From Opitutaceae bacterium (GTDB taxonomy: Bacteria; Verrucomicrobiota; Verrucomicrobiia; Opitutales; Opitutaceae), in NCBI GenBank assembly GCA_026125215.1, contig JAHCLN010000016.1:1-37047 (forward strand): DNA of 37,047 nt, given 5' to 3'. This document shows, piece by piece, positions 2,616-4,036 of the stretch (positions are counted from its first letter, which is position 1; every line of letters starts with the position of its first letter). The notes beneath the pieces were generated by a model that saw only the letters and a program-made list of their open reading frames with translations, was not told where the DNA came from and ran no database searches. The translations under genes were made by a program, and so were the position numbers.

Positions 2616-3419
2616 ATGCTTACCCCCGCCCAAGTCCAGGAATTCCAGTCCACCGGCTATCTCCGCGGCGCCAAGGTCGTTTCCGATGCCGAGGTCGATC
2701 AGATGCGCGCCGAGGTCGAGCGCGTCATCGCGGAGCGCGACCGCAAGGATATCCCGCAACCCGTGCTCTGCCACAATTTCGTGGGCAATGAGGAGGCCCC
2801 CGTCTGGCAGATCGTGAACATCTGGCAGGCCAGCCAACCCTTTGCCGCCCTGATCCGGCACCCGGTTATCTGCGAGGAAATCGCCCAGCTCACCGGTGCG
2901 ACCGACCTGCGGATCTGGCACGACCAGATCCAATACAAACCCGCCGCGCGAGGCGGGGTAAACATGTGGCACCAAGATGCGCCGCTCTGGCCGATCATCC
3001 GGCCGATGACCGAGGTTACGGCCTGGGTGGCGCTCGACGATGTGGACGTGGACAACGGCTGCATGAGCATGGTGCCCGGTTCGCATCGGTGGGGCGACCA
3101 CATGGACTATCTCAGAACCTGGCGTGATTTTACGAAGGACGTGCCGTCCGAGTATCAGAGCCACAAGGTGACGGTGCGCACCTGCCCGGTGAAAAAGGGC
3201 GAGGTGCACTACCACCACGCGCTCACGTGGCACGGTTCGCACGCCAACACCAGCGGCCGCCCGCGCCGGGCCATCGCGCTGCACTTCATGACCGGCGACA
3301 CGCGCTACGTGGCCTCGGGTGAACACTGCATGAAGCAGTTCGTCACCGTGGCCGACGGCGAGGTCCTCCGCGGCGAACACTTCCCGCACGTCTGGAGCAA
3401 GGAAGCCGTGCCGGCTTAA
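2616..3419 (+). CDS. phytanoyl-CoA dioxygenase (PhyH) family protein
   Basis: This is a 267-residue member of the PhyH family of Fe(II)/2-oxoglutarate oxygenases, which usually hydroxylate small molecules. The iron triad is visible: WHQD supplies His119 and Asp121, and the distal His206 lies in TWHGSHANTSGRPRRA, whose arginine (216 or 218) would hold the 2-oxoglutarate carboxylate. The core also shows the typical VTAWVALDDVDVDNGCMSMVPGSH stretch in two pieces (residues 133-157). No signal peptide is present, so it should be cytoplasmic. It follows the AraC regulator on the same strand, and such pairs are frequent in Verrucomicrobiota as I recall them. The substrate is unknown. The ATG at 2616 lacks a Shine-Dalgarno site but fits the usual family N-terminus (LTPAQVQEFQSTGY). 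Confidence 0.88.
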   Translation: MLTPAQVQEFQSTGYLRGAKVVSDAEVDQMRAEVERVIAERDRKDIPQPVLCHNFVGNEEAPVWQIVNIWQASQPFAALIRHPVICEEIAQLTGATDLRIWHDQIQYKPAARGGVNMWHQDAPLWPIIRPMTEVTAWVALDDVDVDNGCMSMVPGSHRWGDHMDYLRTWRDFTKDVPSEYQSHKVTVRTCPVKKGEVHYHHALTWHGSHANTSGRPRRAIALHFMTGDTRYVASGEHCMKQFVTVADGEVLRGEHFPHVWSKEAVPA

Positions 3420-3457: not shown

Positions 3458-3485
3458 GGTGGGCGGGCACGTCCCTGTGCCCGCC
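3458..3485 (+). repeat. REP-like palindrome upstream of the transposase gene
   Basis: A GGTGG foot (3458-3462) is followed by an 8-bp stem, GCGGGCAC (3463-3470) and GTGCCCGC (3477-3484), around the loop GTCCCT; G3462 and C3485 add a ninth pair. A second copy in opposite orientation with the same foot and loop lies just after the transposase gene. The layout matches REP elements, which have a short conserved foot and an imperfect palindrome mobilised by REP-associated transposases. It may also act as a terminator for the PhyH gene. Confidence 0.75.
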
Positions 3486-3523
3486 TTTGACAGGCGCTGA
3501 GGCCGGTGGCTACGGTGCTTTCC

Positions 3524-3988
3524 ATGCCCGCGCCCTTTTCTCCCAAAGGTCGTCTTCATCATACCACACCCGGTTGGGTGCCTGAGGGAGAATTTTTCCA
3601 TGTGCGGATACGGTGCGATCGCCGGCAGCAACCGGCGCTGACCGATTCTCGCTTGGCGTGCAGCTTGTTGGAGTCGGTCCGTCACTACCACGTTGGCGGA
3701 CGGTGGTGGTGCCGGTTGTTATTACTGATGCCGGATCATCTGCACGCACTGCTGGCGTTTCCGCCCGTGCCCGGGATGTCGCCGACGGTCAGGCAATGGA
3801 AGGCCTATCATGCTCGCCAAAATCGGGTGCAATGGCAGGACGGCTACTTTGACCATCGCATCCGCAGCCCCAAGGAACTGGACATTAAATCGGATTACAT
3901 CCGGCAAAATCCCGTGGTCAAAGGATTGTGTGCCACGGCTGAAGATTGGCCTTGGATGATCGAACCAAAGGATCGATCACAGGGGTGA
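3524..3988 (+). CDS. REP-associated tyrosine transposase (IS200-like Y1 family)
   Basis: This is a 154-residue single-domain Y1 transposase of the RAYT type, which nicks and rejoins single-stranded REP DNA through a covalent tyrosine intermediate. The HUH motif is MPDHLHALL (His72 and His74) and the catalytic tyrosine is most likely Tyr125 in DYIRQNPVVKGL. The preceding GYFDHRIR block is also typical of RAYTs. I chose ATG 3524; a GTG at 3506 would add six residues. The gene is flanked by two inverted REP-like hairpins 38 bases upstream and 20 bases downstream, which is how non-autonomous REP families and their transposase are often arranged. The frame is intact and the key residues are present, so it may be active or domesticated. 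Confidence 0.88.
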   Translation: MPAPFSPKGRLHHTTPGWVPEGEFFHVRIRCDRRQQPALTDSRLACSLLESVRHYHVGGRWWCRLLLLMPDHLHALLAFPPVPGMSPTVRQWKAYHARQNRVQWQDGYFDHRIRSPKELDIKSDYIRQNPVVKGLCATAEDWPWMIEPKDRSQG

Positions 3989-4008
3989 TGGAGGGCGGAT
4001 GATAATCC

Positions 4009-4036
4009 GACGCGCAGAGGGACCTGCGCGTCCACC
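4009..4036 (-). repeat. REP-like palindrome downstream of the transposase gene (inverted copy)
   Basis: Read on the minus strand this copy has GGTGG (4036-4032), stem ACGCGCAG, loop GTCCCT and stem CTGCGCGT. Foot and loop are identical to the copy at 3458-3485 while the stem bases differ on both arms in a compensating way. It ends seven bases before the stop codon of the leftward aldo/keto reductase gene and could also terminate that transcript. Confidence 0.75.

Follow-up and report, generated by a model that had tools for sequence, protein, structure and literature searches.

A REP-associated tyrosine transposase gene between inverted GTGG-footed hairpins in an Opitutaceae genome

The transposase and its flanking hairpins

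In the window, by which we mean the whole stretch of 37,047 nucleotides analysed here from a 3.46-Mb Opitutaceae genome in 224 contigs, the gap that separates a phytanoyl-CoA dioxygenase gene from an aldo/keto reductase gene is occupied by the gene of a REP-associated tyrosine transposase (RAYT, or TnpA_REP) and two hairpins (REPs). The features are as follows; residue numbers of the window RAYT are those of P0001, whose first base is position 3491.

2616-3419, plus strand: phytanoyl-CoA dioxygenase (PhyH) gene, PF05721
3458..3485, plus strand: left REP, subtype B, reading GGTGG-GCGGGCAC-GTCCCT-GTGCCCGC-C, with foot GGTG, 9-bp stem G+GCGGGCAC / GTGCCCGC+C and loop GTCCCT
3458..3462, plus strand: GGTGG of the left REP foot, containing the guide-like tetranucleotide GTGG
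3487..3492, plus strand: TTGACA, immediately 3' of the left REP, kept in the relative L022 (CCTTTGACA)
3524..3988, plus strand: RAYT / TnpA_REP gene, 154 aa from ATG 3524, with an alternative start at GTG 3506
3599..3613, plus strand: strand beta-1, H37-V-R39-I-R41 (numbering of P0001), with R41 at 3611-3613
3737..3745, plus strand: HUH motif H83-L-H85, the nuclease metal site
3896..3910, plus strand: catalytic Y136 and N140 (SDYIRQNP)
4009..4036, minus strand: right REP, subtype A, reading GGTGG-ACGCGCAG-GTCCCT-CTGCGCGT-C, with foot GGTG, 9-bp stem G+ACGCGCAG / CTGCGCGT+C and loop GTCCCT
4043 to about 4990, minus strand: aldo/keto reductase gene, PF00248

The two hairpins of the original prediction are present at 3458-3485 (+) and 4009-4036 (-), both with the GGTGG foot and the GTCCCT loop, and lie in opposite orientation, head-to-head with feet outward, one on each side of the RAYT gene. 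The stems pair as had been claimed, while their length, given before as 8 bp, is 9 bp, since the G that ends GGTGG is also paired, its partner being a C. Together the hairpins form the top inverted repeat of the region (27-nt arms, 81% complementary), and both fold as DNA better than shuffled sequences (z about -2.5 to -2.6 and -4.0 to -4.1). Within the window, the exact pattern occurs at two places, both being the flanking hairpins, and a covariance model gives only two matches (E about 1e-7), both of which belong to the set from which the model was built.

That the gene between the inverted palindromes encodes a REP transposase was borne out by sequence profile and by fold. A profile of 29 relatives had its best match in E. 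coli TnpA_REP (4ER8; E 2.7e-13), followed by ISDra2 at 0.0016. The NCBIfam model NF047646 (REP_Tyr_transpos) scored 74 bits (E 1.1e-20), just below its cutoff of 80, and the match to Pfam Y1_Tnp was weak (21.7 bits, cutoff 23). The predicted model of the window RAYT (pLDDT 83, over 90 in the core) is closest, among solved structures, to the complex of E. coli TnpA_REP with a REP hairpin (4ER8), with Z 13.5 over 136 residues and a Foldseek value of 5.3e-8. Across the 29 relatives, M80, P81, D82, H85, Y136, N140 and P141 are invariant and H83 is nearly so. The window RAYT also has W115-Q116, D121-H122 and R125, counterparts of the E. coli guide-contact residues W94, Q95, E/D100, H101 and R104 (PMC6006769), and its active site is apparently intact. 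Named relatives of the enzyme, from which the genome was judged to belong to Opitutaceae (phylum Verrucomicrobiota), come from Opitutus, Lacunisphaera, Cephaloticoccus and Opitutaceae metagenome-assembled genomes. Translation most likely begins at ATG 3524 and not at GTG 3506, since the former is aligned with the start of the relative L022, and TTGACA at 3487..3492 is a possible -35 element of the transposase gene.

The REP family across the genome

A genome-wide search for GGTGG-N8-GTCCCT returned 15 exact copies, against 1 for a reversed control pattern, and the covariance model found 20, of which 19 have E<1e-3 and the weakest has 0.17, so that the family extends well beyond the pair at the transposase. 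The copies elsewhere keep the foot and the loop, the exceptions being one GGCGG foot and a few loop variants. A search of Rfam gave no match. In the 15 exact copies, 7.4 of 8 positions are paired between the two arms, compared with 5.5 of 8 when the arms were shuffled among the copies (maximum 6.5 over 1000 shuffles). The compensatory stem change first claimed for the two flanking hairpins holds across the 15 distinct copies, where both-sided changes occur at 5 of 9 pairs, 96.3% of stem cells are paired versus 78.0% after shuffling, and the stem covariation score is 0.534 versus 0.204 in shuffles, with independent compensations fewer than the copies because two stem subtypes, A (xCGCGCAG) and B (xCGGGCAC or xCCGGCAx), supply much of the stem variation. 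Sliding the partner column by one to three positions never gave a covariation above 0.095. The further claim that the structure is kept and not the stem sequence is right with the qualification that the stems come in these two subtypes; the arms still always change together.

All 20 copies are intergenic, with the window about 86% coding; genes for this placement were called with a codon-use script trained on the window's homology-supported genes. The listed neighbours of the 20 copies are convergent or co-directional gene pairs, with no divergent pair among them. Sixteen of the 20 form eight doublets, the RAYT pair counted, and the remaining copies are single. Every doublet is head-to-head with feet outward, and the spacers, the RAYT pair excepted, measure 3-12 nt where readable. 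The doublets are A/B heterodimers in 8/8 cases in this genome and in 20/22 when three relatives, whose doublets were subtyped by hand, are added; re-dealing the subtypes over this combined set gives p 5e-5. In DNA folding, the real heterodimers reach about -11 to -30 kcal/mol, and roughly half form two hairpins apart from each other; artificial homodimers of the same REPs would give a single long hairpin at about -38 to -45 kcal/mol. This modelling suggests that the A/B rule may be explained by homodimers collapsing into one long hairpin. A like proposal has been made for heterodimers generally, which occur in many REP families, and GTAG-17 REPs form head-to-head dimers with 1-2 nt spacers (PMC3733652).

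One candidate origin of the doublet spacers, as internal-deletion products of the RAYT unit, was considered on the basis of TTGAC beside subtype B and CG beside subtype A, both shared with the RAYT unit, and was set aside as unproven, the spacers (3-12 nt) being too variable.

A second RAYT is present in the same genome (G000:C73:5352-5768). It is 41% identical to the window RAYT, carries the strand FFLTLCC (GTAG type), and has on either side GGTAGGGCCCGACCTCCGGGCGGGCC hairpins with GTAG feet and a different stem that contains a mismatch; its REP family has 14 exact copies in the genome and the control pattern 0. The whole second unit spans G000:C73:5316-5884 (locus L017). The genome thus carries two RAYTs, each paired with repeats of a different foot, which is what one would expect of enzymes that each read their own REP, and repeat-specific REPtrons have been described in other species (PMC3733652). 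Two further Y1_Tnp-family genes, at G000:C79:35150-35602 and G000:C1:12007-12438 (L018 and L019), are 32-35% identical to the window RAYT; beside neither did the hairpin script call a hairpin with a GT[AG]G foot. The gene neighbourhood of the second RAYT recurs at L230 (G073:C47:17120-18769) around a RAYT with an internal TGA and different REPs. In genome G013 (one contig, 5.8 Mb), 36 REPs of the GTGG family are present and no RAYT was detected at E 1e-3; these orphan REPs imply that GTGG REPs can persist without a RAYT or that another enzyme serves them.

Site history and interpretation of the unit

In the sister genomes G073 and G115, the PhyH and aldo/keto reductase genes are adjacent, with neither a RAYT nor GTGG REPs; the PhyH of G073 is 97% identical to that of the window, and in the G115 alignment the two neighbour genes lie 77 bp apart. 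Because the same gap lacks the unit in these sisters, the unit is probably young at this site, and its absence from them could in part be loss. Neither an exact insertion junction nor a target duplication was readable by empty-site alignment, as the flanking intergenic DNA is not alignable. G115 has a RAYT of 68% identity between other genes, with a B REP on the left, an A REP on the right and TTTGACA beside the left REP, as in the window. REPINs, the head-to-head A/B doublets, of contigs C35 and C192 are absent at the matching places in G073.

GTAG-footed REPINs lie in the PhyH/aldo-keto reductase gap of G073 and G095, beside the genes that flank the GTGG unit here, and the site of the C35 REPIN in G073 likewise carries GTAG-footed REPINs (in sister loci L167, about 1310-1400; L274, about 2080-2150; L168, about 1390-1470). 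Different REP families reuse the same gaps. At the sister G115 locus, an A-21 nt-B block is directly repeated on both sides of the RAYT (L022, 361-450 and 960-1050); we suggest only that such a repeat could derive from a tandem or circular intermediate.

We interpret the unit as a REPtron, that is, a single-copy RAYT of the HUH, Y1 type between REPs of its own dispersed REPIN family, with a probability of about 0.92. The E. coli TnpA_REP and its REPs (BIMEs) show a similar arrangement, in which an HUH-Tyr enzyme of about 165 aa lies between inverted REPs, a foot tetranucleotide stands 5' of the hairpin and two REP subtypes occur head-to-head. The E. coli REPs differ in having a GTAG foot and a bulged stem that is read by the enzyme, where those of the Opitutaceae unit have GTGG and are unbulged, and the E. 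coli enzyme has a C-terminal tail (4ER8 residues after about 144) with no counterpart in the window RAYT. Closer in stem and tail are the group 3 REPtrons of Stenotrophomonas maltophilia and Marinomonas, which likewise have unbulged palindromes with a short loop and the foot beside the stem, and whose RAYTs likewise have extra N-terminal residues and no C-terminal tail (PMC8266576). With extra N-terminal residues, no tail of the E. coli type and unbulged, short-looped REPs, the window RAYT would be placed by these features in group 3 TnpA_REP as defined there. The group 3 REPs of these two organisms, for which the biochemistry is known, have GTAG feet and other loops (GCT in S. maltophilia). 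Within the same bacterial family, published descriptions exist of the REP families GTAG-17, -19 and -20 of Opitutus terrae, and GTGG is the majority foot of GTAG-20 (PMC3733652). Genome G003 has a RAYT with GTAG REPs whose stems are other than those of the window family. The tnpA_REP genes placed in subclass 2.2 but labelled marginal and GTGG-enriched (PMC6006769), compared by their description, share the GTGG foot and stand apart from the E. coli clade.

The steps by which such a unit would act are taken from the E. coli, Stenotrophomonas and Marinomonas systems (PMC8266576). By analogy with the GTAG REPs of those bacteria, GTGG would be the guide. The RAYT would bind the hairpin extruded on one DNA strand (the folded top strand) and would read its 5' foot GTGG and its loop (the CC core), loop positions being read by the enzyme in the Stenotrophomonas and Marinomonas systems (PMC8266576). 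Y136 would then cut single-stranded DNA near a dinucleotide chosen with the help of the foot, and strand transfer would rejoin the cut DNA beside the hairpin. In this way REPs, mainly as REPINs, would reach further intergenic sites by being copied or moved, probably while the DNA is single-stranded at the replication fork, and the RAYT gene would stay single-copy.

A count of 19-20 copies is low for a REP family, which often exceeds 100, and weighs against the REPtron reading, as do the orphan REPs of G013. The low number fits a decaying relic, in which the RAYT would be inactive and the REPs its remnants, as do the degeneracy of some REPs and the atypical composition of the gene. The GC3 of the RAYT gene is 0.63, below that of the window genes, which average 0.86 and have 0.79 as their lowest value (0.79-0.93), and may reflect either recent arrival or relaxed codon use. 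We consider a relic unlikely, given that the reading frame has no stop, all catalytic and guide-region residues are kept, many REP copies are perfect and the same gap in the sisters is without the unit, which is probably young there.

Far less probable is a classical insertion sequence of the IS200/IS605 type, whose gene and two end hairpins would move as one unit. Fold and chemistry are alike (Z 10.2 to IS608), and the related unit at another chromosomal place in G115 means that within the genus the gene has moved or undergone gain or loss. The window RAYT, however, reaches only 15.2 bits with the NCBIfam IS200 model (cutoff 55) as opposed to 74 with REP_Tyr_transpos, and the genome holds one close copy of the gene, yet 19-20 copies of the hairpin without it. 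The hairpin ends are also inverted here, unlike those of IS200/605, whose end hairpins are not known to be terminal inverted copies. The idea that the hairpins are transcription terminators or mRNA stabilisers with a transposase between them by chance draws on their stable stems and on their placement, always intergenic and never between divergent genes as for 3' ends, and can practically be set aside, since a conserved unpaired foot and loop, a strand-asymmetric motif and A/B doublets are untypical of terminators and family-specific hairpins adjoin dozens of RAYTs; a secondary role of the REPs at mRNA 3' ends is possible.

Foot type and residue 41 of the transposase

Foot type was compared with enzyme sequence at RAYT loci gathered from two sources. 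Hairpins beside each RAYT were called from scratch, the only features required being GT[AG]G and either CC or GAC within the loop. The relatives' RAYTs are flanked by hairpins of the same plan with other stems and loops. On a tree of 102 RAYTs, 99 of them with a called foot (GTGG 50, GTAG 49), foot type changes 4 times, versus 33.3 with shuffled labels (0/500 shuffles), an agreement that is partly expected because the gene and its flanking repeats travel together.

The feet are also reflected in strand beta-1, which reads FH[IV]R[IVL]R in the main GTGG clade and FFIT[IV][CNK] in GTAG enzymes, with F-F-T-V-N at this place in the GTAG-reading E. coli TnpA_REP. In the strict set, comprising rows with two or more hairpins each, residue 41 is the sole column that separates the feet completely, in 84/84 rows (R/H/A/G for GTGG, C/N/K for GTAG), with classes picked after seeing the data, few independent foot switches and many unsupported forks in the tree. 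GTGG enzymes outside the main clade fit as well (L046, FFITIH; L196, FFVTLH; L202, YFFTLG), L202 standing next to the GTAG-footed L230 (YFFTQC), and the GTAG-footed second RAYT of this genome fits too. A formal independent-pairs test of residue 41 found 3 pairs, 1 of them on starred branches, too few for significance. Two loci with one hairpin each, L113 and L048, break the foot pattern; L048 also has a mismatched GTGG hairpin, twice, and both foot calls are probably miscalls.

The GTAG contacts of the E. coli enzyme are made by residues of beta-1, of the region around beta-4 and of the C-terminal tail (PMC8266576), and the beta-1 position of residue 41 fits these contacts. Residue 41 as a reader of the foot is a testable lead, not proof. 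More speculatively, and at less than even odds in our judgement, R41 (aligned with N19 in the 4ER8 chain) may read or gate the third guide base, in which case changes at this residue would have switched the REP guide of the Opitutaceae lineage to GTGG, away from GTAG, on at least two or three separate occasions, thereby making possible two REPtrons per genome that do not cross.

The REPtron/REPIN arrangement is of a known kind, and this precedent lowers its novelty; GTGG feet, in place of the more usual GTAG, are likewise already in print for Verrucomicrobia and for marginal tnpA_REP groups. A limited literature search for papers on the RAYTs of Opitutaceae returned none. New are the present member, the strict pairing of A with B in doublets and the lead on residue 41. 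REPs rank among the most common bacterial repeats, and the matching of RAYTs to their own REPs has been worked out for only a few Proteobacteria. The present clade offers a natural series, in which close enzymes are paired with differing REP stems, loops and feet and both feet occur in one genome, and a single residue that tracks the foot within such a series makes guide recognition testable.
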